A DNA stretch of 38,095 bases. Origin: a virus. The DNA lies in the IMG/VR virus record IMGVR_UViG_3300025117_000952, positions 1 through 38,095 of that record. One strand, written 5' to 3'. Each line of letters begins with the position of its first letter. The first letter of the stretch is position 1. The notes under the pieces were generated by a model. It was given only the letters and a program-made list of their open reading frames with translations. It was not told where the DNA came from and did no database searches. This document shows positions 3,765 to 30,328 of the stretch, piece after piece. Both the position numbers and the translations under genes were made by a program.

Positions 3765-5679
3765 TGACAGAAACCTCAGCTAGCGTCCACCAAGTCGTTA
3801 TCCCGTTCCAGACCCCTGGGTCGCCGGTTTCATTGTGGACAAATTTAAAGTCAACATCCCGTCCCTCGATAATTTCCCCGCCAGTTGGAAACAACAGTTT
3901 CTCCACACTCTTGTTTACTTGGCCTAAAGTTCTAAAAGCTCCCCCATCAATGGAGTATTGTAGTTGAGCACCACGGGCATTCTCTGAGTCTACCAAAACT
4001 GACAAGTAGCGTTTGGTTTGGTCAGTGCCAAAGTTATTCCTACCCAACTGAACTTCCATTGGGATAGGGTCTACATGGTCGCGGTTAGTCGTTTCGTCAC
4101 GAAAGAGATTGCCTAGCTCGTCAGTGAAGTATGGCTTGGTGTAGCCGTGCATGGTGTGGTTGAACTGAAAACGGAACTCCCGTTTATGTTCCTCAGTCCA
4201 CCAAGCATTAAGGTCAAAGTCGTAACACAGGCGATAGACTTTTTTAGTTGAAACGGCAGTCGTAGTCGAGGTCGAGGTACTAGAGGTGGAAGATGAAGTT
4301 GTACTGACCGAGGTTGAACTGGTCGAGGTAGTTATGGTCGTAAATGAACTAGTACTGGTAGAAGTACTGGAAGTCGAGGTGCTGGAAGTAGAGCTGGAAG
4401 TAGAGCTGGTGCTGGTAGAGGAAGTGGAGGTGGATGTTGTTACGCTTTCTAGGGGCAACAATTCACCCACCGCCACTTTATATACCCGACCAACTGCAAC
4501 AGCTGAAGCTTTAGGAAAGTTAGTTTGGTTAATGGCTCTGATATAAGGGTCAATGGCCCGTGACAGTAACTGAAGCTGGCCGGTATTGTCGTTATAAGCC
4601 CAGACACCGGTGGTATGCAGCCAGATAGTCCAGGAGCCGATGTTTTGGATGGTTTCGTGCGACACACAACCGATTGTTTCGGAAACGGTAATCAGGTTGG
4701 CGCCGTCCCATTTCAAGAAAGAGTTTTTAGTGAACAGGAATAGCCGGTTGTTGTTCTTACCCCAACCAGTAAACTCCGGTTTGGCTTCACGGCCTGGTGG
4801 TACCCGTTCCCAATCGGCGGTCTCAGGGGTTTTGTAATCAGTATTCCAAAAGCGGGATAGTTTGCCCTTAGTACCGGTCAGCCAGATTTCATCATTGTCT
4901 TTGACATTAAGAGTGGCCATCTCAAAGCTGAAGCGGTTGTTTTTCTTATCAACTGCTACAACGCTCAAACCAGTAACTAGTTGGGCTTCGGTGCCACTTG
5001 AGTAGATGTCCAGTTGCATTCCTGGCTTGATGTAGCGTACCGAATCAACCCGTATATTTTGCAGCAGTCCGGCTTGGTCGGTCTGGACTTGGGTGATAAA
5101 ACCCAGCGGTGGTGAGGACTTATAGAAGCGGTCATGATAGTACTTGCCATTGACATAGCAGTTAATAGCGTAAAGCTCGCCGTTATATTCAGCGATGAAC
5201 TTAGAAGCTGGAGCCTTATAGACGTTACGGGTAGTAGAAGCACTCAACGTATAGTCAATGTTGGTTAGAGCCAGGTAGTTATTATTGGCCGAAGCGCCAG
5301 CGACATACATTTCGTCTAGGTCATTAAGCATTTGAAAGCGGCAACTGGCTGGAGCGTCAGAGATAATGGTAGTCAGTCCGCCATTACTGTCCAGGTAACG
5401 CAAGGTACCGGTTGTACCATCGGAATTATTGCTACCGACTATAACCTTGTCATTGGAACCATAACGGTAAACAAAACCACCGTAAGTATCGGTGCCGTTG
5501 CCGACTACTGCCACCCGTTCATAGCCATCACGCCGTTTAGCCGAACCTATTTTGGCGTTATAGATGGCATTCTTAGTCAGTTTGACTTCATTGCTTTTAC
5601 GCAGTAAATGGGAAGTGCCGATTTGGAGGCCACCTGATAAATCCAGTTGTCGGTTAGGTCTGGGATTATTACTAGCCAT
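3757..5679 (-). CDS. Propeller/nozzle-like tail protein with internal Ser/Thr tract
   Basis: A 640-residue protein of mostly beta character. It has repeated Gly/Asn/Tyr-rich strands (for example GGFVYRYGSNDKVIVG, then EMYVAGASANNNYLALTN, then LFLFTKNSFLKWDG), as in beta-propeller tail hub or nozzle proteins of podoviruses (T7 gp12-like or P22 gp10-like by architecture, not by proven homology). At about residues 412-475 (bases 4252-4443) the fold is interrupted by some 60 residues that are nearly all Ser and Thr. The chain then resumes with a structured domain containing KVYRLCYDFDLNAWWTEE. The tract is therefore an internal loop or spacer, unlike the C-terminal or near-C-terminal tracts of the other Ser/Thr proteins here. 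It follows the adaptor-like gene by two bases. Confidence 0.62.
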   Translation of the reverse strand: MASNNPRPNRQLDLSGGLQIGTSHLLRKSNEVKLTKNAIYNAKIGSAKRRDGYERVAVVGNGTDTYGGFVYRYGSNDKVIVGSNNSDGTTGTLRYLDSNGGLTTIISDAPASCRFQMLNDLDEMYVAGASANNNYLALTNIDYTLSASTTRNVYKAPASKFIAEYNGELYAINCYVNGKYYHDRFYKSSPPLGFITQVQTDQAGLLQNIRVDSVRYIKPGMQLDIYSSGTEAQLVTGLSVVAVDKKNNRFSFEMATLNVKDNDEIWLTGTKGKLSRFWNTDYKTPETADWERVPPGREAKPEFTGWGKNNNRLFLFTKNSFLKWDGANLITVSETIGCVSHETIQNIGSWTIWLHTTGVWAYNDNTGQLQLLSRAIDPYIRAINQTNFPKASAVAVGRVYKVAVGELLPLESVTTSTSTSSTSTSSTSSSTSSTSTSSTSTSTSSFTTITTSTSSTSVSTTSSSTSSTSTSTTTAVSTKKVYRLCYDFDLNAWWTEEHKREFRFQFNHTMHGYTKPYFTDELGNLFRDETTNRDHVDPIPMEVQLGRNNFGTDQTKRYLSVLVDSENARGAQLQYSIDGGAFRTLGQVNKSVEKLLFPTGGEIIEGRDVDFKFVHNETGDPGVWNGITTWWTLAEVSVNA

Positions 5680-5681
5680 GA

Positions 5682-6887
5682 CTACCTTCTAAATTTGGTT
5701 ATAGTCGAGTCTTGAGGTCTAAAACTTCTGGGGGTGCCCGCATCTTTTCGGTCAATGGTTTTGTAGCGGGCTTTTTCACGCTCATAGAGTCCTAGGTATC
5801 TATCTCCGTGAACGATAGTTGGGTCGGCTATAGCTCGTTTGCCCCAGTACATAGCCTTGCAATAGAGTTTATAAATATAGGGGGAAGGGGTTTCGATAAC
5901 ATCGCCTTCTGAGTCTATGGTCGTGAAGTACTTCCAGTAATGTAGGTAGAAAACATTAGAGCCGGTTGTTTTGGCGGGGTGTGAGAAGCGGAAGCGGTTG
6001 ACTGAAGTGTCCAGCGTCATAGCCACTGGTTTGTCATCACTAACTGTTGTAGAACTGACAGTGTTATCAGCGTACTTGTTGCGGAACTCCTCCATCGGGA
6101 TAACCTTGATAGTGGAGGTTTCATCGGTGTCGGGGTCAGTAGAAGTGTCAGTGAAGTTATAGTCTAGGCGGTCAAACTTCCACATAGATTGTTTGCTATT
6201 GGAGTCAGTTGGGAAGGCCAAGTAGTTAAGGTTGATTGTGCGGGTGTGGGCGGAACGGCTGTGCAGAAAAGTGTATGGTCTGGCAACATTGGCTTGCAAG
6301 TCGTCGTTGACATCGTTGAAGTAGCCCAAGTATTCCCTTCTGGTGACATGGACTTCTTGGGGGTCGCCGACTTCTTTGAGGATTTCATCTATAATATTGC
6401 CGACTTGTTCCCGCCGCCAACCAGTGGCTTTAATCGGGTCTGACTGGGCACTCTCTAAGGTTGATACGGAATGGTAGAAAGAGGTCTTGTAGTAGTAAGC
6501 TGAAGTGCCCTGGGTATCGTCATAAATAGTCTGGAGACTGAGGTTGTCAACATCCATATTTTTGGTGACCAGTAACGAGTAAGTACTGCCACTATCGGTT
6601 GAACGGTAGAATCGCACTTGGTCGAAACTCATCACATAGACTGGGTCGTCGGCTGAGTGGGCGTAAAGCGTCGTGCCAACGGTCAGGGTCAGGTTGTCGG
6701 CGTTGACGGCTGAAGCAGTCACTACTTCGGCGGTTTCGGTGCCCATCTCGCCAATCATAATCCGGTCATTGGCCGCAAAGCGGTCAGCGTTCTTGACGAT
6801 TATGGAAGTGACTCCGACGGAGTAGGGGTTGGCCAGGTAAGATTTTTCCCAGTGGGTAGTTTCTGGATTAAACACATTGATACGCAT
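5682..6887 (-). CDS. Head-to-tail adaptor or tail structural protein (putative)
   Basis: A 401-residue virion-type protein. The first 150 residues are beta-rich and begin by describing an Ig-like or fibre-like fold (SYLANPYSVGVTSIIVKNAD). From about 155 the chain has a helical adaptor-like segment (GWRREQVGNIIDEILKEVGD, then DVNDDLQANVARPYTF) that recalls head completion/adaptor proteins of podoviruses, followed by another beta region and a basic C-terminus ending TKFRR. The next gene downstream is the propeller-like tail protein, the order expected for an adaptor followed by a nozzle. The ATG has no Shine-Dalgarno sequence. An AGACTATTG element with a 17-nt-spaced weak -10 ends 6 nt before it, so a leaderless mRNA is possible. 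Similarity is by motif and context only. Confidence 0.55.
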   Translation of the reverse strand: MRINVFNPETTHWEKSYLANPYSVGVTSIIVKNADRFAANDRIMIGEMGTETAEVVTASAVNADNLTLTVGTTLYAHSADDPVYVMSFDQVRFYRSTDSGSTYSLLVTKNMDVDNLSLQTIYDDTQGTSAYYYKTSFYHSVSTLESAQSDPIKATGWRREQVGNIIDEILKEVGDPQEVHVTRREYLGYFNDVNDDLQANVARPYTFLHSRSAHTRTINLNYLAFPTDSNSKQSMWKFDRLDYNFTDTSTDPDTDETSTIKVIPMEEFRNKYADNTVSSTTVSDDKPVAMTLDTSVNRFRFSHPAKTTGSNVFYLHYWKYFTTIDSEGDVIETPSPYIYKLYCKAMYWGKRAIADPTIVHGDRYLGLYEREKARYKTIDRKDAGTPRSFRPQDSTITKFRR

Positions 6888-7447: not shown

Positions 7448-8311
7448 CTATCGCCATTGCCTGATAGCCCCCCGTGGGTCGGCATTATCAATAACAGTTT
7501 GGGGGTTGGAGTTGATGTCTATAAGCGTGGTGGAGGTTGAGGTACTGGAAGTGGAGGTCGAGGAAGTCGAGGTGCTGTTAGTGGTGCTGGTAGATATGGA
7601 GGTGGAGTTAGAAGTGGAGGTGCTGATTGAACTTGAAGTGCTGGAGGTTGATTGGCTGGTGGTACTGGCTGATGTCGAACTGGTTGAGGTAGAGGTCGCT
7701 CCTACGGCTATAAAAGTCGCTACTACAGCTGCGTAAAGGGAACCAGCCCCTCCAGGCCACTGTGCTTGGTACTGGGCTTGGGCGGAAACAGTCTTGCTTT
7801 CTATGGATAGGGGGTGGCCGGACAAAGCCACTTGAGTATAGTTGGAAAAACCACTACCGACTCCCGTATCGCCTGAGTTGCCGCAAGTCACCCCGACCAC
7901 CAGTTCATCACCGTAACTAGTAACGGCTGTGTAACCGGAGGTAACGGGTGTTCCGCCAGCGGTTTGGCCACTTATTTTATCAAGTACTCCGCTGGTCAAG
8001 AGCCCTGACCATTCCTCAACTGCAATTCCCACACTGCTGGCTATGGAATACTCAATACTGATTGTATGCCCCGCCCCCCCGACTATATTAGGAGCGTACC
8101 AGATTTCGGCCGTGTTGCCGCTGGCTCCCGATTGTTCCCGTGCTATGGCTCTAGTGAAAGTATTGCCTTTATTATCACTGACTGTGATAGTCCCGCCGCT
8201 GGTAGAACCCTGCCCCGCCGCTATGATTAGAGTGTTGCCATTTGTACTGGTAAAAGAGTTCGTAGTCTGGGGCGAATCGCCTGTTTTAGTGATGGTTTGG
8301 ATAAGTGTCAT
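7448..8311 (-). CDS. Fibre-like protein with C-terminal Ser/Thr tract
   Basis: Residues 1-200 form a beta-sandwich-type domain with the pattern NTLIIAAGQGSTSGG...VSDNKGNTFTRA...TAEIWYAPN...AVEEWSGL. This pattern is familiar from extracellular and phage appendage proteins, but I know no defined activity for it. Residues about 203-265 (bases 7515-7700) are almost pure Ser/Thr with a few Ala, Asn, Gln and Ile. The chain ends in a short ordered tail, TTLIDINSNPQTVIDNADPR. The TTLID junction also occurs after the Ser/Thr tract of the 615-residue protein, so the two tails are related. The start overlaps the upstream stop (ATGA). A virion fibre or head/tail decoration is likely, and the Ser/Thr tract is a candidate O-glycosylation site. 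Confidence 0.62.
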   Translation of the reverse strand: MTLIQTITKTGDSPQTTNSFTSTNGNTLIIAAGQGSTSGGTITVSDNKGNTFTRAIAREQSGASGNTAEIWYAPNIVGGAGHTISIEYSIASSVGIAVEEWSGLLTSGVLDKISGQTAGGTPVTSGYTAVTSYGDELVVGVTCGNSGDTGVGSGFSNYTQVALSGHPLSIESKTVSAQAQYQAQWPGGAGSLYAAVVATFIAVGATSTSTSSTSASTTSQSTSSTSSSISTSTSNSTSISTSTTNSTSTSSTSTSSTSTSTTLIDINSNPQTVIDNADPRGAIRQWR

Positions 8312-9057
8312 CGGCTCACCCCTATAGTCGCATGAGGTTGGAGGTTGGTGATTATGCCGCTGGTTGAGCTGGTGGACAGAGAGCTGGAAGTCGAACTGGT
8401 GGATTGGGAGGTTGATGAGGTAGAAATGGAGGTCGAAATACTTGTACTGATTGATGAGCTGGTGGAACTAGTAGAGATTGAGGTGGAGGTAGAAGATGTG
8501 GAACTGGAAGTCGAACTGGTGGAACTGGAGGTCGAAGTCGTTGTCGCCCCAACGGTGTAATAAACGGTAATCCGAATATGGTCTATTCTAGCTGTTTCAT
8601 TACTACTATTAGTAACCGCAGAAAATGCCACACCAAAATCAGTATCATTTATATCACTTGTAGCCCAAGTTTCACCCCATTTATCAGCACTAGTTCCGTA
8701 AGATACATAGGCATCGGTAGTCGGCCAGCGAGTAGCTCCGTCAGCTTTATTAACCGTTCCGATAGTTCCATCAGACTTAACAATACTTACTCTACTGTCT
8801 GAGACATGGTCAGCCTGTGTGCCGACAATCCCGCTTCTTTCAACTTCTACTATGATTCCATCAATACTACTACCTGCCGCGATGGTAAAACCAAAGTTAG
8901 TAGCTTTAATGTAATGGGTAATATTACCGCCAATTTCGCTAGCAGTGGCTCTCACATCATCACTCGCTTGTGAATTGTTAGGAGAGTTCCAAGAAGTTAC
9001 ACCGTATGAACTATCATCTGCGGTAGCACTAGGACTTAGTGGACCCTGACTTGCCAA
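8308..9057 (-). CDS. Fibre-like protein with C-terminal Ser/Thr tract, TTG start
   Basis: Residues 1-170 contain a recognisable phage/bacterial beta-sandwich pattern: FGFTIAAGSSIDGIIVEVERS, then TDAYVSYGTSADKWGETW, then DFGVAFSAV and ARIDHIRITVYY. I recall this arrangement in many phage and surface proteins without assigned activity. Residues about 171-235 (bases 8353-8547) are nearly all Ser/Thr with scattered Ile, Gln and Leu, followed by a short tail ending ATIGVSR. The start is a TTG codon, chosen because GGGGGT lies eight bases upstream and no ATG precedes the conserved domain. The 3' end overlaps the next fibre gene in ATGA. The role is inferred as a virion appendage with a flexible or glycosylated stalk. 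Confidence 0.62.
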   Translation of the reverse strand: MASQGPLSPSATADDSSYGVTSWNSPNNSQASDDVRATASEIGGNITHYIKATNFGFTIAAGSSIDGIIVEVERSGIVGTQADHVSDSRVSIVKSDGTIGTVNKADGATRWPTTDAYVSYGTSADKWGETWATSDINDTDFGVAFSAVTNSSNETARIDHIRITVYYTVGATTTSTSSSTSSTSSSTSSTSTSISTSSTSSSISTSISTSISTSSTSQSTSSTSSSLSTSSTSGIITNLQPHATIGVSR

Positions 9058-9067: not shown

Positions 9068-10915
9068 CTAATTATTCCAAACATTAAAAGACGGTATGGT
9101 GACTCTAGGTATGGTCATGTAATCAATTAGGGTGGTGGAGGTGCTGGAACTGGTAGATAGTGACGATGAAGTACTGCTCGTGGATATAGAAGTAGACACC
9201 GAGGTGCTGGTACTGGACGTGCTAATTGAGCTAGAGGTTGAAGAAGTGGATAGTGAGGTTGAGCTAGATGTGCTAGAAGTCGAAGTACTCTGGCTGGTGC
9301 TGGTGGAAACACTGCTGCTGGTCGAACTAGTTGAAATGGAAGTACTAACTGAGGAGCTGGTACTACTCGTAGAAATAGAACTGGAAGTTGAGCTGGTCGA
9401 GGTACTGACGCTGGAACTCGTAGAGCTTGTGGAAATACTACTAGAGGTAGAACTTGTGGAAATAGAAGAACTTGTCGAGCTGGTACTGATGCTTGTGGAA
9501 ACTGAAGAACTGGTACTAGAGGTGGAAATACTGGAGCTTGTACTTATAGAAGATGAGGTACTAGAAGTGGAAATCGAGGAACTTGTGCTGCTGGTGCTGA
9601 TGGAAGTTGAAACTGAAGAACTCGTGCTACTAGTAGAGATTGAGGTTGAAATTGAGGTGCTAGTTGAGATTGATGAGCTGGTGCTAGAAGTTGAAGTTGA
9701 CTGGGAAGTAGAAATACTGGACGATGTGGAACTGGTACTAATTGAGCTAGAGGTACTAGAGGTGGAGATAGAGGTAGACACCGAGGAACTGGTAGAGGAC
9801 GTTGAGATTGAGGTAGAAACACTAGAGCTGGTTGATGATGTTGAAACCGATGAACTTGTACTGCTAGTAGAGGTAGAAATACTACTGGAGGTTGAACTGG
9901 TTGATATCGAAGAGCTGGTACTGCTGGTAGATATTGAGGTAGAGCTGGAGGTTGAAGTCGTAGGGGCTGAGTAAGTAACAGTTAATTGAGGTAACTGAGC
10001 CTCTGTGATAATATCCGCAAAACGGATGTTGAATGCACTATTGGCATTTGATGCCCAAGTACCGCCAAAAGTGCCATCAAAATCAACTTGGTGACGCATG
10101 GCAATCTTAGTAATGCCGGTTTTGTTGATAGCCCCGTAACCCGTAGCGTTCATGGCTATGGCGTTTCTAGTATCAGCGACATAGCTAGCGTAAGCCAAAT
10201 TCCCCCAAGAAGTTGAACCTACATTCCCATAGTCGCTATCAGCGATTGCACTGGTTGAAGCGATAGTTGACTCTACAATATAAACAGAGGGAGTTATACC
10301 TAAAGTCGTGGGCGCAGCTCCCTGAAAGTACATTTTAAAATCAGCGGCTGAAACAGTAGCACTAGCACCAATAGATGAGGTATCAAAACAGTAGTGAGGT
10401 CGTCGTATTTGCGACCACTGGTCGGTTGTGGTGGATGCTCTAACATTTAAGAAACCACCAGCATCACCCGTGGCACTGCTAGTATTACCAGCCCCAGCCC
10501 GAATATCAGTTAAAGTTTCGTCTACTGTCACCCGACCAGTATCACCATCTATCGGTGAGTTAGCCCCCGCTGCTGGACTGACGGTTAAAGTATCAAATTG
10601 AGCCGAGAACACCTCCATCGGACGGAACCTGTCAGCTATCAGCCAGTCCCAAAAGTGCAGGCTCCACCACATAGGTTTGAAAGTCTGATACAGCCAGTAG
10701 GCATACATATCGGGGCCATAAATTGTGGCCACATATTCATCACCGTCTTTGTGATAATGTGAACTTTCAGGAGTAATCCTAACAAGTTTCTCGCCTTTGG
10801 GCAGATTGCTTTTTAAGCGGAAGACCCTACGTCCCACCCAACTATTAGCAAATTTTAAGAGTTTATCTTGATGGAGTTCGAACCATTCTTTACTGAATAC
10901 TTGAATAGGTTGCAT
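9068..10915 (-). CDS. Large fibre protein with a ~280-residue Ser/Thr repeat tract
   Basis: This 615-residue protein has three parts. Residues 1-105 are an aromatic, basic N-terminal domain (MQPIQVFSKEWFELHQDKLL) possibly used for virion attachment. Residues about 106-317 form a beta-rich domain with FDTSSIGASATVSAADFKMYF and LPQLTVTYS, like the DNRLRE/CBM96-type fold of surface proteins. Residues about 318-597 (bases 9124-9964) consist almost only of Ser and Thr with regularly placed Ile, Val, Leu or Gln, in units such as TSSTSSSISTS. A short tail, TTLIDYMTIPRVTIPSFNVWNN-like, closes the chain. The composition resembles serine-rich-repeat adhesins that are heavily O-glycosylated. The gene follows a structured noncoding interval and has an AGACTATTG element 35 nt upstream of its ATG, with no well-placed Shine-Dalgarno. 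Confidence 0.68.
   Translation of the reverse strand: MQPIQVFSKEWFELHQDKLLKFANSWVGRRVFRLKSNLPKGEKLVRITPESSHYHKDGDEYVATIYGPDMYAYWLYQTFKPMWWSLHFWDWLIADRFRPMEVFSAQFDTLTVSPAAGANSPIDGDTGRVTVDETLTDIRAGAGNTSSATGDAGGFLNVRASTTTDQWSQIRRPHYCFDTSSIGASATVSAADFKMYFQGAAPTTLGITPSVYIVESTIASTSAIADSDYGNVGSTSWGNLAYASYVADTRNAIAMNATGYGAINKTGITKIAMRHQVDFDGTFGGTWASNANSAFNIRFADIITEAQLPQLTVTYSAPTTSTSSSTSISTSSTSSSISTSSTSSSISTSTSSTSSSVSTSSTSSSVSTSISTSSTSSSVSTSISTSSTSSSISTSSTSSSISTSQSTSTSSTSSSISTSTSISTSISTSSTSSSVSTSISTSSTSSSISTSSTSSSISTSSSISTSSTSSSVSTSISTSSTSSSISTSSTSSSISTSSTSSSVSTSTSSTSSSISTSSTSSSVSTSISTSSTSSSVSTSTSQSTSTSSTSSSTSLSTSSTSSSISTSSTSTSVSTSISTSSTSSSLSTSSSTSTTLIDYMTIPRVTIPSFNVWNN
9124..9964 (-). repeat. Ser/Thr codon repeat tract, ~840 bp
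   Basis: The coding strand encodes about 280 residues of TSSTSSSxSTS-type units (x = Ile, Val or Leu). At the DNA level the units are strongly diverged: AGT, AGC, TCT, TCC, TCA and TCG all serve for Ser. The plus strand is consequently open in a Val/Glu/Leu-rich frame, an artefact of the codon pattern. Shorter related tracts lie at about 4252-4443, 7515-7700, 8353-8547 and 29495-29665. Confidence 0.9.
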
Positions 10916-10958: not shown

Positions 10959-11097
10959 ATCACTAAGGCATTAACCCATCCTTCCCTGCTAAGGTGTTCT
11001 GGGGTGTTTCTTTTACGGATGTTAGTCTATCTTTATCCCTGTCGGTTAGGCTCGAATGGTTACGGTGTCCTACCTTAGTCTCAAGACCAACTATCTA

Positions 11098-11159
11098 GTG
11101 ATGGGGGGAGCAGGTTGCCAGTCGTAGGGTCGACGTTGCTGGCAGTTAGCTCCCATCAC
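11098..11159. other. 62-nt stem-loop or cruciform
   Basis: The arms GTGATGGG (11098-11105) and CCCATCAC (11152-11159) pair perfectly. After a GGG bulge (11106-11108), AGC pairs with GCT (11149-11151). A second stem, TGCCAG (11116-11121) with CTGGCA (11139-11144), encloses a loop that contains GTCGAC. It lies in noncoding DNA with no adjacent T-run, so it is not a simple terminator. Confidence 0.6.
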
Positions 11160-11258
11160 CACTACCTTAATGGAGTTTTATGGGTCTCCGAACCGTGGCT
11201 TGTAAAATTATGGTCACTTGACAAAGTGTGCTATTATAAAAGTATCACAAGAGCAACG

Positions 11259-11284: not shown

Positions 11285-11296
11285 ACCAAATTGACA

Positions 11297-11323: not shown

Positions 11324-11331
11324 ATACTTAA

Positions 11332-11367: not shown

Positions 11368-12354
11368 TTAAAGGGGGGTGATAGTGTTTTCTGGGATGGC
11401 GTAGATTTCATCTGGATGCTTTGGGCAGACTGCTCGCTGGCCATCGTCAGTGTGCAGTATCTCGTCACACTGGGTACAGCGCACCCCCCACAAATCATGT
11501 ATAGGAACTTCTTCACCTTTTTTATTTAACCTCGTACCCCATTTTTCTTTTAAATCACCGTGGTGGAGTTCAGGCATAGCCAGTGAAGCAACATCTTCAC
11601 CTTCTTCTATAGAGCGGAAAGTAGTACTCCAATGGTGGAAGACCCACGATAGAGTAGTGCCTACACAACGGTAGCCAAACATACTGGCTCTGCACCCAAG
11701 GTCGTAGTCGTTAGCCGACCCTGGAAAAAAGTATTCATCTAGTAAGCCTACTTCAAGGAGTTTTTTAGTATCGACCACCGAACAGTAAAGGTTTATACCG
11801 TCTATAACCGACCCGGGCATAATTGTTAGATGTTCATTTACATAATGCTCTTCATTGACCAAAAAATTCCAGTCTTCGTCCGTATATTCTTCTTTGAAAG
11901 GTAAAATATAATGGTCTTCACCTTTAGGCTTCCCCACGCTCCAGTCGGGTAGTTTGATAGAACCTACATTAACAAGTAATGCGGGACGTGTAGGACTAGC
12001 CTTTTCGACCTTTTCAAAAGTGTCTAAGACTCCCTGAAACCAATGGTTTGAAATGAAGGATACATCGTCGTTCAACATACAAAGATAGGGAGTTTGAACT
12101 AAGGGAATAACTAGGTTAGTAGCTTTAGAATGCCCCAGATTACCTGTTCGGTATTGGTCAGTTAAGGGCGAACGGATTATCATTAAGTTCTTATATTTGT
12201 CTCTAAGATTTGGGTCTAAGCCTTTAGCTGACTGGTCAACGATGTAAACGTAATAGTTTTGAGGTGTATATTTGTAAAGTGTCCTTAAACAATCATGTAT
12301 CAATTCTCCACCCAAATAAGGAATTATAAATGTTATCATTTTAGGTTGTTGCAT
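11368..12354 (-). CDS. GT-A glycosyltransferase with C-terminal zinc-ribbon-like tail
   Basis: A family 2-like glycosyltransferase of 328 residues. It has the N-terminal nucleotide-sugar strand ITFIIPYLGG (about 7-16), VYIVDQS (36-42) and the metal-binding LNDDVSF (D96, D97). Further on come a receptor-side VGLLDEYFFPGSANDYDLGCRASM and an HHW segment typical of family 2 enzymes. The C-terminus carries CTQC (293-296), then Cys310 and His313, which may bind zinc. This tail is not part of ordinary family 2 enzymes. It has a GGAG eight bases before the ATG. It is the last gene of the sugar region before the noncoding interval. The substrate is unknown. The enzyme would act in the cytoplasm of the infected cell. 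Confidence 0.85.
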   Translation of the reverse strand: MQQPKMITFIIPYLGGELIHDCLRTLYKYTPQNYYVYIVDQSAKGLDPNLRDKYKNLMIIRSPLTDQYRTGNLGHSKATNLVIPLVQTPYLCMLNDDVSFISNHWFQGVLDTFEKVEKASPTRPALLVNVGSIKLPDWSVGKPKGEDHYILPFKEEYTDEDWNFLVNEEHYVNEHLTIMPGSVIDGINLYCSVVDTKKLLEVGLLDEYFFPGSANDYDLGCRASMFGYRCVGTTLSWVFHHWSTTFRSIEEGEDVASLAMPELHHGDLKEKWGTRLNKKGEEVPIHDLWGVRCTQCDEILHTDDGQRAVCPKHPDEIYAIPENTITPL

Positions 12355-21764: not shown

Positions 21765-22590
21765 ACTTTCCTTCCCATGGCGGATGATAGATTAGCTTAT
21801 CAGGTAATACCATGTTCTTGTTATACCAGACATCTGCTTTGGGTTCGTCATCTCTTGTATAGCCAAATTTATCACGATAGTAATCAAAATTACGTTGCCA
21901 AGCATCTTGATGCGAACCATCAAATGTACCTGACTTGTTAGAAAAGTGATACACCAACACATCCCGCAGGCGCACAGGTGTAATACCAGCGATATTAATT
22001 TTAGTCTGTAAATCCGTGTCAGAATTCGACCCCCATTCATCGTAAAAAGTATCATAACCACCAATCGTATCCCAAACATCCTTGCGAATGAAGAACGGTA
22101 GATTAAAACCAGTTTCCTCTTTGGGTAAAACCGCTTTGGACTTACTTCTGCTAACTAGCAGTTCAATGGATTCATTGACAAAATCTCTATTAAACTCCTC
22201 TATAGTAAAACCACCTTCAGCCTTCAAGAAGGGAGGAGCTGAACCAGCATTATTTACCGGCTCCACTAGATTAGGCGAGAATACCAAATGGTCAAACCTC
22301 AAATTCTTATCCCAACCTGGTGCGTAATACATATCCGAGTTAGACACCATGATGTAGTTGGTATCGGGTGCGACTATTTGGGCACCTATATTGGTAGCTA
22401 GGCATTGTCCTTGTTTAGGAGTGTGAATATGGTTGACCTTGAGATGTTTTAGGTCTGGTTTATGGGAGGTGCCGTTGGTGACCACGATTATCTGTCCCTC
22501 AAACCCGTTGTCCCTCAAACTGTTCACGCAGAGTTTCAGGTACTCGCCATCTACTTCAAATAGGGAGGGGATAACTATGCCTACTTTCAT
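21751..22590 (-). CDS. GT-A glycosyltransferase (family 2-like)
   Basis: A 279-residue family 2-type enzyme. It has VGIVIPSLFEVDGEYLKLC at the N-terminus, IIVVTNGTSHK (34-44), GQCLATNIGAQ (61-71) and the metal/donor strand IMVSNSDMYYAPGW (80-93). A later WGSNSDTDLQTKINIAG segment corresponds to the catalytic base region (ED in classical members; here SD-TD). It overlaps the GroES stop in ATGA and runs 14 nt into the following methyltransferase. No membrane segment is seen. The donor site is less canonical than in the gene at 26739-27617. Confidence 0.78.
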   Translation of the reverse strand: MKVGIVIPSLFEVDGEYLKLCVNSLRDNGFEGQIIVVTNGTSHKPDLKHLKVNHIHTPKQGQCLATNIGAQIVAPDTNYIMVSNSDMYYAPGWDKNLRFDHLVFSPNLVEPVNNAGSAPPFLKAEGGFTIEEFNRDFVNESIELLVSRSKSKAVLPKEETGFNLPFFIRKDVWDTIGGYDTFYDEWGSNSDTDLQTKINIAGITPVRLRDVLVYHFSNKSGTFDGSHQDAWQRNFDYYRDKFGYTRDDEPKADVWYNKNMVLPDKLIYHPPWEGKYAEL

Positions 22591-22868: not shown

Positions 22869-22875
22869 AATTCTC

Positions 22876-23391
22876 CTATATCTTTAACTTTACTAATACG
22901 CCAAGACTTTCAATTTCCTGCCTAAGCAGGCTGGTATCGGCTTCGGTTTTGTCCTCAAACAAGCGGGTGTGGAATTCTATGTCCAGTAAACTTAATCGCT
23001 GAATAGTGCCCTCATTAATCATCTTGCGAAGTACTGCGAATTCCGCCCCCTCACAATCCATCGAACAAACGATAGTTCCCTCTGGTAGTTCGGCTACAAA
23101 ACGGGAGAAGTCTATAGTAGGGACGGTTATTTTTCGGTCTGGGGATTTTCTAATGCTAGTCAGGTGGGAGGCATCATCCCGCCCCCCGATAGCGAACTCC
23201 GCCTCCCCATCCTCCACCCAGACAGCCTTTTTTATCCACTTTACCTTAAAAGGGAATCTCTTGATGGATTCTTTAACGTTAAGTTCAGTGTTGGGTTCAA
23301 AAGCGTAGACTAGCCAACCCTTATCCATAAGTGGGGCGTAGTAGTCTAGGGCTTTTCCTTGGTAGTAGCCACAATCTAACATAATTCTCAT
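22876..23391 (-). CDS. FkbM-type SAM methyltransferase
   Basis: A 171-residue member of the FkbM group (Methyltransf_21). It has MLDCGYYQGK in place of the SAM-binding first loop, VYAFEPN (28-34) as the defining motif, and MDCEGAEFAVLR (111-122) as the second signature with Asp112 and Glu114. The C-terminal part is shorter than in many members. FkbM-type enzymes O-methylate sugars and other small hydroxylated compounds. Given the deoxysugar genes nearby, a sugar O-methyl group on the local glycan is the best inference. The start overlaps the deacetylase-like gene stop in ATGA. Its stop lies seven bases before the GroES start. Confidence 0.82.
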   Translation of the reverse strand: MRIMLDCGYYQGKALDYYAPLMDKGWLVYAFEPNTELNVKESIKRFPFKVKWIKKAVWVEDGEAEFAIGGRDDASHLTSIRKSPDRKITVPTIDFSRFVAELPEGTIVCSMDCEGAEFAVLRKMINEGTIQRLSLLDIEFHTRLFEDKTEADTSLLRQEIESLGVLVKLKI

Positions 23392-23966: not shown

Positions 23967-24651
23967 AATTAGCCAACTTTTCCAGCCATTCATTGGGGTA
24001 TTGTTCATTAAGTAATTTTGCATTCGACAAGATACAATGGCCACCGACTTTACCTTCTGGGGGGTCGAGAATATAACGCTGTGCCCAATTCTCCCCTAAC
24101 TCGTGGTAAAGCTGATTATAATCACGGTCAAAATCCTTCAATAGTTCAAAATCCATGTTTATAGAGTCGGCCACTGACTTTTCATAGTCTGTCCAAATAA
24201 GGTTAATACCGTACTTGGCAGTGGAACGAATCTTCAGGAACTCAGTAAAGTCAGAGTTTTTCACTCGCCTAGTTTTGATAAACTTGTAAGCAAATACGCC
24301 AGCGAAAAAACGGGTTTCTTTTTCACTCCCCCCCAACCATCTAGTTGCAGTACGAATAGATAATTCCAAGTCTGGGTGGCGACCCTCGATAGGTGAATGG
24401 ACTGCACCTGGTATTTGTTTAGTCGTACCGATTGGTAAAGTAGAATAGATGATTGTATGGGTGGATTTGAATATTTGTTGGTAATTTTTAACAAATTTCA
24501 CAAAATCTGGAGTGTAAGGAAAACAGATATGCAACACGTCAATAGGTGGCTCAATGGCTTTGGACTGTAAGTCTGAAGTTTGAGCATCAGTGAAAATGGT
24601 TTTAATCGCTTTACCAATCTCGCCCATACCAACAATTAAATGTTTATCCAT
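23959..24651 (-). CDS. Short NDP-sugar dehydrogenase-like protein
   Basis: A Rossmann-fold protein with GMGEIGKAI at 8-16, YSTLPIGTTKQI near 69-80 (cf. the ST-P-GT signature of UDP-glucose/GDP-mannose 6-dehydrogenases) and EGKVGGHCILSN near 199-210. The last of these retains the catalytic Cys206 in the GGHC motif of that family. At 230 residues it is about half the usual length (roughly 430) and lacks the C-terminal UDP-binding domain. It may therefore be a reduced active enzyme, a partner for another subunit, or a degenerate copy. Its overlap with the methyltransferase (8 nt) and the deacetylase-like gene (8 nt) places it in the coupled operon. Whether it oxidises a sugar nucleotide is uncertain. 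Confidence 0.68.
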   Translation of the reverse strand: MDKHLIVGMGEIGKAIKTIFTDAQTSDLQSKAIEPPIDVLHICFPYTPDFVKFVKNYQQIFKSTHTIIYSTLPIGTTKQIPGAVHSPIEGRHPDLELSIRTATRWLGGSEKETRFFAGVFAYKFIKTRRVKNSDFTEFLKIRSTAKYGINLIWTDYEKSVADSINMDFELLKDFDRDYNQLYHELGENWAQRYILDPPEGKVGGHCILSNAKLLNEQYPNEWLEKLANYD

Positions 24652-25255
24652 GTTCCACCTCTATGGCATATAAATCATGGAAAGCGTCTTTTCTGGGGAG
24701 GCGTTCGTGCGTCCACTTCAAATTCAGGGAGTCTAAATATTTTTCCCATTTTGGCTTGGAATACCACGCCCCCCAACCATCATCTCCATCATCATTAACC
24801 GGATTGTCCTCTTCCTTATCCATTAAGTGCCAAAAAGTAAAAATTGCCAGTCTTCTAGCCACTCGTAGAGCCTCCCTGACAGGTTTCTCATAGCCATTAG
24901 TATGTTCCAGCACATCTTGCATAATAACCACATCAAACGAGCCGTCCAAGTGCCTAAGTTTCCTAACATCACCTATAGAGAAAATTCTCATTGGTTTAAC
25001 CCGTTGGTTAGCTACTCGCACGAATCTCTCGGAATAATCTTCCCCCCTATATTTGACTGATGGCCCATGCTCTAAAAAATGGTTAAAATTCCAGCCTGGC
25101 CCGCAACCAGCATCCAACACCCACTCCCCACTTTTAAGATATTTGCCTATAAGATGTCTAAGGGGTGAGCCAACTCCCTCGCCATAGGTTTCCATATAGG
25201 TAGCAGCCGCTTCATCCGTACCAGAAAGTTTATCCCAGTAGTTGGGTTTGCTCAT
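24644..25255 (-). CDS. Class I SAM-dependent methyltransferase
   Basis: A 203-residue Methyltransf_11-type enzyme. Motif I is VLDAGCGPG (47-54), the acidic loop is YRGEDYSE (about 69-76), motif II lies in FSIGDVRKL (92-100), and motif III is FDVVIMQDVLEH (107-118). These are all the expected SAM-binding elements in the right order. The C-terminal part (WGAWYSKPKWEKYLDSLNL) could shape the acceptor site. It starts by overlapping the upstream glycosyltransferase-like gene in ATGA and ends in an 8-nt overlap with the sugar dehydrogenase-like gene. By context it methylates a sugar or glycan, but lipid or small-molecule acceptors cannot be excluded. Confidence 0.8.
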   Translation of the reverse strand: MSKPNYWDKLSGTDEAAATYMETYGEGVGSPLRHLIGKYLKSGEWVLDAGCGPGWNFNHFLEHGPSVKYRGEDYSERFVRVANQRVKPMRIFSIGDVRKLRHLDGSFDVVIMQDVLEHTNGYEKPVREALRVARRLAIFTFWHLMDKEEDNPVNDDGDDGWGAWYSKPKWEKYLDSLNLKWTHERLPRKDAFHDLYAIEVEHG

Positions 25256-25965
25256 AAAATAACCTCTCTCTTGAACATACCAACTAAATCGCCAGCCTCA
25301 GGGTCAAACTTGCCTAAATCATTAACGTAATCCTCAGTCGTCACATAAGTGGCATTAGGATTAAGATGAACCCTGTTACCCGATGAACCAGCCGACCAGC
25401 CCTGACCCCTACCCCTGCGCCAAAAGCCCAGAGATATTTGGGTGGAGAAATAGACCAAATCATTCTCCCATGTTTCCCCAACTTTCAGAACCTTACCTTT
25501 TTCTAAACTCTTCCAACCCAAGTTATCTATTAAAGATTGTAAATTTCGCAAGCGTATAACCGAGCCAGGTATATAAGCTATCTGAACGGCAAAGGGGACT
25601 GTAGACTTCTGCTCATGGTTAGGAATCACCCCCTCCATATAATTCTCCCCCAGTGAATAGCCATAAATCCTATTTGACCAATCATTGATAGCCGTAGCTG
25701 AGGACATTACCGCCAGCTTCCTGAAATAGGGGCTTTTTTTGAATAGCCCCATCTGGGAAGAAAAATAACCAGAATTAACCAGACAGTCAGCCTCCACCAT
25801 ACAAACAAAATTTTCATGTCCCGTCTCCAACTTCATAACAGTATCTATCCAGTTATCAGCCACTAGTAATTCCGAATCTATGTTCTTGAGTTCCCTGAAA
25901 AGATTCTCATAGGTCAGTTTGATGACGTTCGGCTCGTGTGAGTCTTTAATTATGACACTAAGCAT
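25252..25965 (-). CDS. GT-A-like glycosyltransferase (divergent)
   Basis: A 237-residue divergent GT-A-type protein. SVIIKDSHEPNVIKLTYEN resembles the first strand and helix of family 2 enzymes. SELLVADNWID and FVCMVEADCLVNSGYF follow, with E58-A-D60 as the metal motif. A later GETWENDLVYFSTQISLGFWRRGRG could be the region holding the acidic base. Similarity is weaker than in the neighbours. The start MLSVIIK is taken because GGAGAAA lies seven bases upstream and the overlap is 8 nt. An earlier ATG at 25998 would give 11 extra residues read from the upstream gene's end. It probably acts with the adjacent glycosyltransferases, but this rests on fold pattern and context. Confidence 0.62.
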   Translation of the reverse strand: MLSVIIKDSHEPNVIKLTYENLFRELKNIDSELLVADNWIDTVMKLETGHENFVCMVEADCLVNSGYFSSQMGLFKKSPYFRKLAVMSSATAINDWSNRIYGYSLGENYMEGVIPNHEQKSTVPFAVQIAYIPGSVIRLRNLQSLIDNLGWKSLEKGKVLKVGETWENDLVYFSTQISLGFWRRGRGQGWSAGSSGNRVHLNPNATYVTTEDYVNDLGKFDPEAGDLVGMFKREVIL

Positions 25966-26749
25966 TGAAATATTTCTCCACGTCTTTTTTAGAGGCATAT
26001 TCCAGTAACTGAACTTTATCGTCGCCTTGTTCTAGGGCTGGATGATAGATATCGTTGTGTCCAGTATCTTCGGGTTTGAAGCTTTCGGGGTAGCCCCAGC
26101 GGTCAGTATCAGGAGTGCCAAACAAGTGCAGGCAGCGCACTTCCGTAGCAAACGCCGTTTTATAGCCAGCTTCCCGTAATTTCCCGCATACATATTTTTC
26201 TTCCTGTCCTCGACCTGGCGCTTCACGGTGCCACCCCCCCACTCTAGAAGTAACTTTAGTATCCATTATCCGGTAGCTGCCACCCGGATGGGGAAAGTCG
26301 ACTATTAACTCGTTTTTCTTATCGGCTTTCTCGAAGATATTGCCAGTACCTATCATTACTTGGGTGCGGGCGGCAATAGCTTTATACTCGGGGAAGTACT
26401 GCATCAGTTCGTATAATTCTTCCAACCAGTCCTTATCACCCTTCTTGGGCATAATTAAACAGTCGTTATCTACACAAACGAAATAGTCGCTTTGGGTACA
26501 TTCTTGTAAAAGTAAATTCCGTGCCGCCTCCAATCCCAAGTTAGTCTTAATCGGGATAAATTCGTCTATCCAGCCATTGTCGTGGAGAGCTTCTAGTTTC
26601 TCTGGGGTGTCACTATTAGAACCGTTATCAAGTACCACTAATCGAAAGTTATCCCTGTTAGTGTTGCGGTGAATAGTACGGATGACCAGTTCGGTCATTT
26701 TGGGGCGGTTCCAAGAGACAATATGAATATCTAAAGGTTTAGTCAACAT
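25958..26749 (-). CDS. GT-A glycosyltransferase (family 2-like)
   Basis: A 263-residue enzyme. DIHIVSWNRPKMTELVIRTI is the usual first strand/helix, VVLDNGSNSDTPE (38-50) the nucleotide loop, LGLEAARNLLLQ the next conserved turn, and VCVDNDCLI (91-99) the DxD metal motif with D94 and D96. GGWHREAPGRGQEEKYVCG holds a likely GxGxEE catalytic region, as in classical family 2 members. The start MLTKPLD was chosen over the longer frame to 26863 because GGAGAAA lies about 10 bases upstream and the longer version would begin well inside the preceding gene. It overlaps the upstream gene's stop by 11 nt and its downstream neighbour by 8 nt. Confidence 0.82.
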   Translation of the reverse strand: MLTKPLDIHIVSWNRPKMTELVIRTIHRNTNRDNFRLVVLDNGSNSDTPEKLEALHDNGWIDEFIPIKTNLGLEAARNLLLQECTQSDYFVCVDNDCLIMPKKGDKDWLEELYELMQYFPEYKAIAARTQVMIGTGNIFEKADKKNELIVDFPHPGGSYRIMDTKVTSRVGGWHREAPGRGQEEKYVCGKLREAGYKTAFATEVRCLHLFGTPDTDRWGYPESFKPEDTGHNDIYHPALEQGDDKVQLLEYASKKDVEKYFNA

Positions 26750-27617
26750 TATAGATTTCTCCAAAGTGTTCATAGACTTCCTCATGCGCCCGTGGATACT
26801 GGATGTATAGAAGTGCGTCTTTACTTTCATCAGTTGGGTGGAGTGGTAGAGAGTGGTTGTCACGGGTTAATAAATAGAATTGATAAAAATCATCACCCCA
26901 AGGATTACCTAAACTAAGCCCATGCCTATATACCCCATCCTGGAATGCCCCTTCGGGGTTCTCGGTATAGGTATACTCCCAATGGTCTTTTTCAGGGTCT
27001 ATCTTCATGGGAAACTTAGAAGAAGCGGCAAACTGGTAAGGATTGACTTCATCGGGTATACGATATTTGGGGTCGCTGACCCACAACTCACGCTTAAAGA
27101 TAAACGACCCAGCCCCAATATGACCACTTCTGAACCATTCGTGTCCATCACCTTCAATTTTAGGTCTAAAAGTTCTTCTAATAGCCGTATGATGGTCTGG
27201 GTAGTAAACAATACTGCCAAAGTTAAATATCTTGTATTCTGGAAAGTCTTTGATAGCTTGGTTTAATTCTCTAAGATAGTGCGAAACGTATTCATCATCG
27301 CAGTCCATCCAGCACAACCATTCACCCTTAGCCTCTTCCATACCTCGATTACGGGCAATAGCTCTATTCTGGTTCTCCTGATGAATGACCCTAATCCGTT
27401 TATCGCTGTCAGCAAACTTTTGTAATATTTCAGGGGTGTTGTCGGTACATCCATCATCCACCAGTATCAGCTCCCAATCAGGAAACTGTTGGTTAATAAC
27501 ACTCTTAATTGCCCTTTGAACTTGTTTAGCCCGCCAGTGGCGGTGTTCAGCATCAGTCACACCCTCGTCCTTGGCGGAATATACGGGGATTATAATGCTA
27601 AACTTTGGCTTTGACAT
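26739..27617 (-). CDS. GT-A glycosyltransferase (family 2)
   Basis: The clearest family 2 enzyme of the window, 292 residues. It has FSIIIPVYSAKDEGV at 6-20, WELILVDDGCTDNTPEIL (48-65), NRAIARNRGMEEAKGEWLCWMD (84-105) and the DxD site D105-C-D107-D108. These match nearly all landmarks of inverting nucleotide-diphosphosugar transferases. The acceptor region beyond residue 170 (GSFIFKRELW, then QDGVYRHGL) is family-like but not diagnostic. It overlaps a 47-residue ORF by 20 nt at its start and the next glycosyltransferase by 11 nt at its end. Sugar and acceptor are unknown. A cytosolic enzyme is expected because no membrane segment or signal peptide is present. Confidence 0.9.
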   Translation of the reverse strand: MSKPKFSIIIPVYSAKDEGVTDAEHRHWRAKQVQRAIKSVINQQFPDWELILVDDGCTDNTPEILQKFADSDKRIRVIHQENQNRAIARNRGMEEAKGEWLCWMDCDDEYVSHYLRELNQAIKDFPEYKIFNFGSIVYYPDHHTAIRRTFRPKIEGDGHEWFRSGHIGAGSFIFKRELWVSDPKYRIPDEVNPYQFAASSKFPMKIDPEKDHWEYTYTENPEGAFQDGVYRHGLSLGNPWGDDFYQFYLLTRDNHSLPLHPTDESKDALLYIQYPRAHEEVYEHFGEIYNVD

Positions 27618-27741
27618 TTATTGTCCTATTCAAGATATATCTGGTTACTTCTTCTTTGGAACGAAACTTAATGGCTGGCTCACCATTAAAATAAACCCTA
27701 TAAATACCCGAACGGGATTTCCTAACTTTAAGTCTCTCCAT
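27598..27741 (-). CDS. 47-residue basic micro-ORF
   Basis: A short basic protein starting MERLKVRKSRSGIYRVYFNG and ending in NVKAKV. It overlaps the upstream GT-B stop by 14 nt and the next gene's start by 20 nt. A strand-rich pattern (GIYRVYFNGEPAIKF), with Arg/Lys in the first ten residues, suggests a small nucleic-acid- or sugar-binding domain or a coupling peptide. No strong Shine-Dalgarno is seen. Support comes from packing and sensible composition, so the call is moderate. Confidence 0.45.
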   Translation of the reverse strand: MERLKVRKSRSGIYRVYFNGEPAIKFRSKEEVTRYILNRTINVKAKV

Positions 27742-29029
27742 CACCTGCCTTTATAAGTGGCTCGATAAAGTCACGAAAGATTTTGTCTGGGTTTCTCTGA
27801 GTCCGAACCCATGTTTTGAAGCGTAAGACTTTATCGTTTTCTAAGTAGTACCTAACTGCCTTAGCCATATCATCATAATAATTATCAATATTCTCGTAGT
27901 TAGTGTTTATCTCACCGTTATAGCCCGAAATAGCGATGTTAGCCCCATCAAACTGTTTATAAATAGCATTCTTGCCGTAGATTTGGCGGAAGGGGGCAAA
28001 GTCTTGGTTCAAGATTACAAAGTTGCCTTTCAGTCCAGCTTCCTGGGCAATAAGGGAATAGGTTTCACTCTTGGAAGCCAGTAAAAAGACATTAGACAGG
28101 GTGAACAAGTCAAGTACTATTTCATGGGGGATTTCCATAGCTGCGATGTCGTCAAACTCGCTTATAAAGGTCAGGCACTCCTCAGCTCCCTGTTCCTGAG
28201 CCAATTTCTTCAAATCTTCACGGTAGACTACTTTATCATCACCGGTGGACTGAAAGTCACAGAAGATTAGATGGGCAGAAGTACCTATTCGTTTGAGAGC
28301 AGCTATCAGTCGGACATTGCCCTCGGCATACTTACCTCGGTCTAGGCGGATAGGCAGTATCATCAAAACTTCCACGTCACCCAGTTTCTTCTTATCATAT
28401 AAACGTTGGACTAGTGGGTGCATACTCTCGGTCGGGTCGGTGGAATGGGGCACCTCGACTACCTGGTCTTCTTCAAAGTTGAAATTGCGGGCGACTCTGG
28501 GAATATCATAAGCGTTGGGGTAGCAGATAATCGAATTAGCGAACGGCGAGTTAAGGGCTTCGGCGTATTTCGCCCCATACATATTGCGTTCCTCAGAAAC
28601 TATTGTCGGGTTAGTGGCTGAGTGTATCCAGTGGCACCACCGAATTGACGGGCGGTCTTGGGCTAGTTTGCGGGCGGCCAAGTTAAGAATCGTATAATCG
28701 GGTAAGAATATCAGGTCATGGGTGATAACCACCGCCCCATCAGGCAGAATGTCATTTAACTGCTGGTAGGCTAGGTCTACAATTTCCTCTATGTCTCCAG
28801 CCTGTTCGTTGGGGTCGTGAATAGCGAATGGGTAGGTCAGTTTGGTTTCTATCCCATAATGCGGTGTATCTTCTGGCGGTTCCCAGCCTTCGGCAGCTAT
28901 TAAAACAGGCTGATAGCCAGCCCGCTTAAGCATTTTAATCTGCTCTCCGACAACTAGAATTGGGCTAAAAGAGCGTAAGTAGGTGGAAAAATTACTTAGT
29001 ATAAATATCGTTTTGTTAGTAACGCCCAT
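27728..29029 (-). CDS. GT-B glycosyltransferase (family 4), first gene of the island
   Basis: A 433-residue GT-B enzyme and the longest glycosyltransferase here. The N-terminal half has FSPILVVGEQIKMLKRAGYQPVLIAAEG. The C-terminal half has VLMILPIRLDRGKYAEGNVRLI (start of the donor domain), FDDIAAMEIPHEIV and SNVFLLASKSETYSLIAQEAG with the E-x7-E donor motif. These features match family 4. The ATG has no Shine-Dalgarno sequence. A degenerate AGACTATTG-like element (AGACCATTG, at 29052-29060) lies upstream at a shorter distance than in the other copies, so its use as a promoter is doubtful. It is the first gene of the run of overlapping sugar genes, 44 nt after a structural gene. Confidence 0.83.
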   Translation of the reverse strand: MGVTNKTIFILSNFSTYLRSFSPILVVGEQIKMLKRAGYQPVLIAAEGWEPPEDTPHYGIETKLTYPFAIHDPNEQAGDIEEIVDLAYQQLNDILPDGAVVITHDLIFLPDYTILNLAARKLAQDRPSIRWCHWIHSATNPTIVSEERNMYGAKYAEALNSPFANSIICYPNAYDIPRVARNFNFEEDQVVEVPHSTDPTESMHPLVQRLYDKKKLGDVEVLMILPIRLDRGKYAEGNVRLIAALKRIGTSAHLIFCDFQSTGDDKVVYREDLKKLAQEQGAEECLTFISEFDDIAAMEIPHEIVLDLFTLSNVFLLASKSETYSLIAQEAGLKGNFVILNQDFAPFRQIYGKNAIYKQFDGANIAISGYNGEINTNYENIDNYYDDMAKAVRYYLENDKVLRFKTWVRTQRNPDKIFRDFIEPLIKAGDGET

Positions 29030-29468: not shown

Positions 29469-29491
29469 ATACAATCCCTTTATCACCCCTG

Positions 29492-30328
29492 TTATGGAGT
29501 GGTGGTCGTCGACGTACTGGTGCTCGATGTTGAGCTTGAAGTAGACGACGTAGAACTTGACGTACTGGATGTAGAACTTGAAGTGCTGGACGTCGAAGTT
29601 GTAATCGTCGTGGTAGACGTAGAACTTGACGTAGACGAAGTCGAAGTCGTAATCGAGTACTCAGGCACATCATTAAGCGTTGTGCCGTCAGACCAGTTGT
29701 CGTAAGCATAGGCGATGATGTAGGCCGTAGTGTTATCCGGCGCTGTCGCTGGAGTCACTAGGTTTCTCTCAATAGTATCGCTGGTTACGACAGTCGGTGC
29801 AGCCTGTAGGGTCAACGTACCATAAGGCGTAGTCCTCGAATAAACCTTAACTGTGGTGTTACTCGTATATAGCCTATGGTTGACTCCCAGAACATCTCGC
29901 GTGCCGACTGAAAAGGTCGCGCCAGTACCGCCTTGCTGGCCAATTACTACTTGAGTAACTGTCCTAAAGGCTAGGTTGCCGTTAATGATGGTGGTCGAAC
30001 CAGAAGCCGTATTAAACTTCTCGCTGATGGTCTTACCTTCAACATTGGTTCCGGTAACGGTGACGTGCGAATCCAGGATGTCGGCTGCTGTCCCGCCAGG
30101 TGTGACGGAGAGTGCCCGAGGCACATCAGGGTCAGTAAGACCCGTTGTGACTGTGGTTACCGTTGTAGCACCAGCTGTGGCTGCCAATACTGCGGTAGCC
30201 GAAGCAGCATTTACCTCGTTGGAAGTATCGGTGTAAGCATAGGTAATATTCCAAAGATTCTTGTAGTTAAACGTACCGCCAGTTCCACGATAAGCAAAAG
30301 GCCAGGTTTTAGCTCTGTAAATTGCCAT
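29492..30328 (-). CDS. Head-associated structural protein with C-terminal Ser/Thr tract
   Basis: A 278-residue protein. Residues 1-215 form a beta-rich domain with DVPRALSVTPGG, DSHVTVTGTNVEGKTISEKF and GTGATFSVGTRDVLGVNHRLY, a pattern I associate with small phage structural proteins found next to the major capsid gene. Residues about 223-277 (bases 29495-29665) consist almost entirely of Ser and Thr, ending TTTTP at the stop. AGGAG lies upstream of the ATG. The gene directly follows the capsid gene, so it may decorate the capsid or form short surface fibres with a flexible, perhaps glycosylated, C-terminal tail. Copy number and exact position in the particle are unknown. Confidence 0.65.
   Translation of the reverse strand: MAIYRAKTWPFAYRGTGGTFNYKNLWNITYAYTDTSNEVNAASATAVLAATAGATTVTTVTTGLTDPDVPRALSVTPGGTAADILDSHVTVTGTNVEGKTISEKFNTASGSTTIINGNLAFRTVTQVVIGQQGGTGATFSVGTRDVLGVNHRLYTSNTTVKVYSRTTPYGTLTLQAAPTVVTSDTIERNLVTPATAPDNTTAYIIAYAYDNWSDGTTLNDVPEYSITTSTSSTSSSTSTTTITTSTSSTSSSTSSTSSSTSSTSSSTSSTSTSTTTTP

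Follow-up and report, generated by a model that had tools for sequence, protein, structure and literature searches.

Glycosylation of phage virions is already a known phenomenon. In mycobacteriophages Che8, Corndog and Myrna, glycosyltransferases (GTs) encoded by the phage itself modify virion proteins, and glycans are reported at the C-termini of capsid and tail-tube proteins (Freeman et al. 2023, as related in PMC12619734 and PMC12363180). The serine-rich-repeat (SRR) glycoproteins of Gram-positive bacteria present long ordered Ser-rich arrays that are O-glycosylated intracellularly, and the GTs are encoded beside them (PMC7948813, PMC6973325).

The window described here, a 38,095-base IMG/VR virus contig, derives from an uncultivated, podovirus-like virus. 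As in the mycobacteriophages, phage-encoded GT genes are present. The protein encoded beside the capsid gene, a candidate virion protein, ends in a Ser/Thr tail near these genes, which may correspond to the C-termini reported as glycosylated in the mycobacteriophages. The capsid and major tail C-termini of Che8 carry no Ser/Thr tract, and therefore the array architecture, the island size and the built-in sugar pathway of the window differ. Single GTs are named as essential in the mycobacteriophages, whereas the window has about ten GTs along with its own deoxysugar synthesis, and its arrays extend over 50-280 residues on several proteins (more than 600 in the relative G007).

The parallel to SRR adhesins, which an earlier sequence-only reading of this DNA had drawn, is good as a functional analogy, as the window also places a long ordered Ser-rich array beside GT genes. 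It does not extend to kinship: GtfA and GtfB find no match, and the genes belong to a phage structural operon with no secreted adhesin. Neither SecA2/SecY2 export genes nor a cell-wall anchor were found among the window ORFs by reading and Pfam. The GTs of gtr serotype conversion are likewise phage-encoded. That conversion depends on membrane proteins, whereas no membrane flippase or polytopic GT is evident in the island of the window by hydropathy scan. Our searches of an open-access library turned up no paper that connects Ser/Thr tracts in phage proteins to islands of GT genes.

Ser/Thr tracts in the structural block

The minus-strand genes, read from right to left, are ordered as large terminase, portal, scaffold-like gene, major capsid protein and Ser/Thr-tailed protein, followed by the sugar island; beyond it come three further tract proteins, the adaptor-like protein and finally the tail protein whose tract is internal. 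The tract-bearing genes and the two structural markers are:

3757..5679, minus strand: tail protein, called nozzle-like for its place behind the adaptor; 71-aa tract at aa 409-479 (nt 4243-4455)
5682..6887, minus strand: adaptor-like protein without a tract; its synteny and sequence are conserved in distant relatives
7448..8311, minus strand: N-terminal domain of unknown family, 59-aa tract at aa 205-263 (7523-7699) and short C-terminal peptide
8308..9057, minus strand: N-terminal domain of unknown family and 66-aa tract at aa 168-233 (8359-8556)
9068..10915, minus strand: protein with a 281-aa tract at aa 316-596 (9128-9970), units [I/V/L/Q/T]STS(STSSS), codons fully scrambled
29492..30328, minus strand: capsid-adjoining protein with a free C-terminal Ser/Thr tail at aa 223-278 (29495-29662)
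30416..31348, minus strand: major capsid protein (phrog_371), a sampling marker independent of tracts and GTs

With a tract defined by at least 85% Ser/Thr in 30-aa windows, five proteins bear tracts of 56-281 residues at this content. Ser and Thr together make up 11.8% of the remaining proteins, and the chance expectation of such windows is about 1e-16. The sequence-only reading had spoken of five probable virion proteins; the tracts are borne out by computation, and the word virion comes from gene position (next to the gene of the major capsid protein, or within the adaptor/tail block), from which we infer that the tract proteins are part of the particle. No family model in PHROGs or Pfam names any of the five, and one tract protein of another phage (L196) is a tail protein. 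The nozzle label of the 3757-5679 product derives from gene order and a weak similarity (hhalign E 0.09); its AlphaFold2 model, built from four sequences, was unusable (pLDDT 32). The head-associated domain was modelled at pLDDT 65; no solved structure matched it under E 0.001, and its matches were all phage proteins without a characterised function.

Tracts are also present on much larger contigs. Three consecutive proteins at 0.4-10.8 kb of G136 (the 84.6-kb L428 contig) hold about 1,280 residues of ordered Ser/Thr tract of the STSISTSSTS type, and the very large phage contigs G013 and G023 (L157 and L171; 224 and 277 kb) encode Thr-rich tracts of more than 150 aa within proteins of 1,200-2,300 aa.

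The residue order of the tracts is strict. In the longest tract, built from [I/V/L/Q/T]STS units with or without STSSS, all 34 of the 34 I/V/L/Q residues occupy the S_STS context (2.1 when shuffled), and the dipeptide TT is seen once against 13.9 in shuffled sequence. The tail-protein tract keeps 29-31 of 33 residues between relatives in which the remainder of this protein is 60% identical, and 6-7 of its Ser positions have switched between the TCN and AGY codon boxes. The identity of Ser and Thr is kept although a single mutation often separates their codons. The tracts use codons as the remainder of the genome does, and at the DNA level copies of one unit are no more alike than random codons would make them, both within one tract and between proteins. 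Conserved order with randomised codons therefore places the protein order, and not DNA repetition, under selection. The scrambling suggests selection against DNA repeats, or repeats that are very old, and it is in its own right a clear and checkable example of repeats that selection maintains in the protein and not in the DNA. Scrambled codons under kept protein repeats are seen at 9068-10915 and in tracts of G003, G007, G008, L132, L167, L194 and L238. Tracts of one genome also have a common dialect (0.80 vs 0.45, p<0.001), which is mostly a matter of the S:T ratio, with order contributing about 0.05 more (p=0.011).

These results bear on whether the tracts are real at all. Some contigs caught by the DNA pattern of the tracts are indeed microsatellites, and the tracts might be taken for such repeats, for assembly artefacts or for a wrong reading frame. 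The genome-like codon use, the sharing of unit DNA at the level of random codons and the conservation in independent contigs refute this explanation for the window tracts, and we give it practically no credence.

They bear as well on the alternative that the sequence-only reading had set beside its own proposal, by which the island alters the surface of the host, for instance to exclude other phages, with the tracts acting as flexible spacers. Three of the five tracts are indeed flanked by an N-terminal domain on one side and a short C-terminal peptide on the other, as spacers could be. The Ser/Thr tail of the 29492 protein, however, is a C-terminal end (exactly 56 aa long in the window as well as in three relatives, 51 aa in a further two, and preceded by a domain of 43-79% identity), and the tract of the tail protein is an insertion that splits two conserved segments. 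These two tracts are not linkers, because the tail joins nothing and the insertion interrupts a conserved stretch. A spacer needs composition alone, yet the order of Ser and Thr is conserved; a simple flexible linker does not fit.

The sugar island and its candidate acceptor

The island lies between the head and tail genes. Its genes are co-oriented on the minus strand, and neighbours mostly overlap by a few bases. Those relevant to sugar synthesis and transfer, along with one conserved protein, are:

11368..12354, minus strand: glycosyltransferase GT2 (PF00535)
12851..13819, minus strand: glycosyltransferase, GT4-type (PF00534/PF13692)
13816..14481, minus strand: sugar-1-phosphate nucleotidyltransferase, RmlA-like
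14478..15389, minus strand: glycosyltransferase (PF13524)
15823..16830, minus strand: glycosyltransferase (PF13524)
16827..17426, minus strand: methyltransferase (PF13578)
17354..18316, minus strand: NDP-sugar SDR; best solved relative, GDP-6-deoxy-D-lyxo-4-hexulose reductase
18247..19377, minus strand: DegT-family sugar enzyme with His at the PLP-lysine position
19374..20588, minus strand: NDP-sugar 3-C-methyltransferase family (D-mycarose 3-C-methyltransferase/TcaB9-like)
20578..21285, minus strand: glycosyltransferase GT2
21282..21764, minus strand: methyltransferase (PF13578)
21751..22590, minus strand: glycosyltransferase GT2
22876..23391, minus strand: FkbM-type methyltransferase
24644..25255, minus strand: methyltransferase (PF08241)
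25252..25998, minus strand: island protein with no family match, kept in relatives
25958..26863, minus strand: glycosyltransferase GT2
26739..27617, minus strand: glycosyltransferase GT2, with a homologue even in L296, which lacks GT 27728
27728..29029, minus strand: signature GT of the system, with a GT4-type E-x7-E motif; Pfam score below cut-off

The sequence-only reading had described a co-oriented operon of about ten GTs with activated-sugar enzymes and several methyltransferases, and this description is borne out by ten GTs, deoxysugar enzymes and five methyltransferases. Nine of the GTs match Pfam GT families; the tenth, GT 27728, is recognized by its E-x7-E motif and a weak PF00534 match. 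The motif, SETYSLIAQEA, lies in the C-terminal half, and its E322 and E330 are invariant across ten homologues. The other enzymes are an NTP-transferase, an SDR dehydratase/reductase nearest to enzymes that act on GDP-4-keto-6-deoxyhexoses, the DegT enzyme and five methyltransferases, among them the C-methyltransferase. A histidine at the site of the PLP lysine, as this DegT enzyme has, is a mark of ColD/E1-type 3-dehydratases. From the gene content, the likely product of the island is a branched deoxysugar. The DegT gene (18247-19377) next to the 3-C-methyltransferase is a possible phage-encoded route to a branched dideoxy sugar.

Several other features of the island were recorded. Its G+C content (11000-28000) is 0.38-0.46 against 0.45-0.50 in the flanking structural genes and its GC skew differs too, a composition as if it had been acquired from elsewhere. 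A GroES/Cpn10-like gene lies within it at 22587-22868 and is 84% conserved in G003. Of two conserved genes without a Pfam match (23388-24044 and 23959-24651), the first resembles a polysaccharide deacetylase and the second an NDP-sugar dehydrogenase, as judged by eye. Two related genes, homing-endonuclease-like by eye, are found among the tract genes (6944-7429) and inside the island (15386-15826), and homologues sit at other insertion places in relatives (G003, G099). A promoter and terminator scan gave no signal above chance level.

What the island decorates can be approached through what accompanies it. Modification of the host surface would agree with the resemblance of most island enzymes to polysaccharide-synthesis GTs, and phage serotype-conversion genes are well known. 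The island, however, differs from systems exporting glycans to the cell surface in that it encodes no protein with a clear transmembrane segment in a simple hydropathy scan, and no clear flippase, polymerase or GtrA-type protein; it is also inside the late structural block in every relative read. Together with the C-terminal tail and the insertion in a conserved protein, the lack of a clear membrane protein weakens this alternative, and we judge it improbable. The GTs could instead glycosylate modified bases of the phage DNA, a common role of phage GTs according to PMC12619734. Among the island proteins and ten non-island proteins of the near-complete relative G003 that were scanned, none was found to be a base-modifying enzyme, and this explanation gives no reason why about ten GTs and the pathway to a branched deoxysugar should stand next to tract genes; we regard it as very improbable. 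With neither a clear membrane protein nor a base-modifying enzyme found in these scans, the simplest interpretation is that the sugars go onto a protein of the cytosol, and such a protein is probably the acceptor. The late structural operon supplies a candidate beside the island.

The identity of the GT that begins the chain was approached by comparison. The check for GtfA/B- or OGT-like enzymes, proposed by the sequence-only reading, came out negative: the island GTs gave no match to GtfA/GtfB in NCBIfam up to E=0.01, PF13844 occurs in 0 of 40 tract contigs, three close relatives included, which rejects a GT41/OGT initiator, and no GT here matches known protein O-GT models. GT 27728 and the GT2 at 26739 would be the best candidates for the first transfer. 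That GT 27728 is the only possible initiator is weakened by L296, which lacks it and has a tract, an island and a 26739-like GT2.

Co-occurrence of tracts and island

Three samples were used. Sample (a) was drawn by the capsid protein, a choice that takes no account of tracts or GTs, and a contig had to extend at least 3.5 kb downstream of the capsid gene. Among its 39 contigs, 37 have neither trait, two have both and none is split. Sample (b) consists of 80 loci drawn by GT 27728. A tract is present at 61 of them, and where the capsid gene and its downstream region are in range both traits are found in 51 of 52; the one contig that departs from this, L441, has the island and no tract and is truncated about 1.5 kb beyond the GT. 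Every one of the 112 tracts shares the strand of GT 27728, and the nearest tract is upstream of it in 57 of the 61 loci (median distance 486 bp). At L428 and L416 no tract is in range of the GT, but tracts occur elsewhere on the contig. The pairing proposed earlier thus holds, with 0 of 39 split in the capsid-drawn sample and 1 of 52, an incomplete contig, in the GT-drawn one. As for relatives with a single trait, which the sequence-only reading had named as counter-evidence, none is split in the 39, but L398 and L433, from other lineages, carry GT 27728 and no tract within their 31 and 27 kb. Independence of tracts from the island is what host-surface modification predicts, and tract presence instead tracks the island.

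Sample (c) was drawn by the tract DNA pattern, with chance-match contigs as controls. A first version of the pattern gave mostly chance matches, and these became the controls; a dereplication on unmasked DNA joined contigs through their tracts and was discarded. A GT2 is present in 15 of 36 dereplicated tract contigs vs 2 of 30 controls (p=0.0015). By total tract length the counts are 1/12 at 40-60 aa, 2/5 at 60-100 aa and 12/19 at 100 aa or more, the last against the same 2/30 giving p=3e-5. Proximity of tract and GT in this tract-drawn sample is weak (p=0.09).

The independence of these cases matters for a further explanation, in which the tracts assemble by themselves into ordered fibres, or form adhesive brushes, and function without sugars, the island being inherited with them by chance or having another target. 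Strict units and kept Ser/Thr identity could indeed mean packing and not an acceptor code. On the capsid tree, 45 members have both traits, 35 neither and one each is of the two mixed kinds. About two trait changes are needed, and an independent-pairs test has no power. The pairing in the capsid family therefore amounts to one long shared history and not to many repeats, and shared ancestry could explain it there. Part of sample (c) is also one broad lineage, since six of its contigs, read whole, have the island order of the window and distantly similar terminases (22-34% identity); the capsid gene is recognisable in three of the six.

Against unglycosylated fibres, GT 27728 accompanies tracts in contigs without a match to the capsid protein of the window (G031, G037, G120 and the 224-kb G013), and long tracts are enriched in GTs outside the capsid family too. 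When contigs with GT 27728 or the window's capsid are left out, GT2 is found in 7 of 28 tract contigs vs 2 of 30 (p=0.07), and in 5 of 12 with long tracts (p=0.014). Among relatives whose proteins are down to 30-40% identical, the tract sequence and even the bearer protein differ, and the tracts and the island remain together. This persistence despite turnover is an argument for function, and the unglycosylated explanation appears unlikely to us.

The sole hint of a host is a capsid relative in a named genome, an Eremiobacterota MAG; it is 35% identical, and both tract and island are absent there. In this MAG prophage (L277:11035-13545) an 836-aa fibre-like gene and a few others replace the island and tracts between the capsid and adaptor genes. 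No homologue of the tract proteins or of the GTs tried was found in any named phage. In G003 (3300025087_001438) and G007 (3300005546_000013), both classed linear, each contig starts and stops inside one and the same gene, which points to circularly permuted genomes of about 52 kb that are complete or nearly so.

A proposed model for glycosylation of the virion

We consider phage-encoded O-glycosylation of the Ser/Thr arrays on the virion to be a fairly probable explanation of this locus, and we infer that the sugars are attached to the tract proteins. Late in infection, a head-to-tail transcription unit would make the tract proteins together with the enzymes of the embedded island, which would build an unusual nucleotide-activated deoxysugar. 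The GTs would then place sugars on Ser/Thr and lengthen the chains in the cytoplasm, either ahead of particle assembly or as it proceeds. One or two head-adjacent GTs (the GT4-type 27728 and the GT2 26739) would probably start the chain on the tracts, and the remaining GTs and methyltransferases would extend and cap it. The tracts would serve as acceptor arrays in which Ser/Thr order matters, placed as a tail on a head-associated protein, as an insertion in a tail protein and as long stalks on fibre-like proteins.

Ordered Ser/Thr stretches beside genes for making and attaching sugars argue that an uncultured, widespread group of bacterial viruses probably coats its own particles with sugar chains. 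Such a coat might, as the sequence-only reading suggested, serve to evade antibodies, to bind hosts or to stiffen fibres. A broader proposal, which we hold tentatively and at a little under an even chance, is that many phages with unrelated capsids possess self-contained mucin-like systems. Dedicated GTs would read a Ser/Thr code, the arrays would move between particle proteins and stay tied to a GT island, and they would be maintained as protein and not DNA repeats through codon scrambling.

Should virions indeed be glycosylated by their own islands, heavy glycosylation would be common among uncultured bacterial viruses, with the phage bringing the whole pathway, its own sugar included. Many unannotated tract proteins and phage GT genes would be explained, and the islands would be a source of new protein O-glycosyltransferases. 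The interest of the system is that it is seemingly widespread and that an order conserved over scrambled codons raises a question sharp enough to be tested: why the exact order of Ser and Thr would be kept although either residue could carry the sugar.
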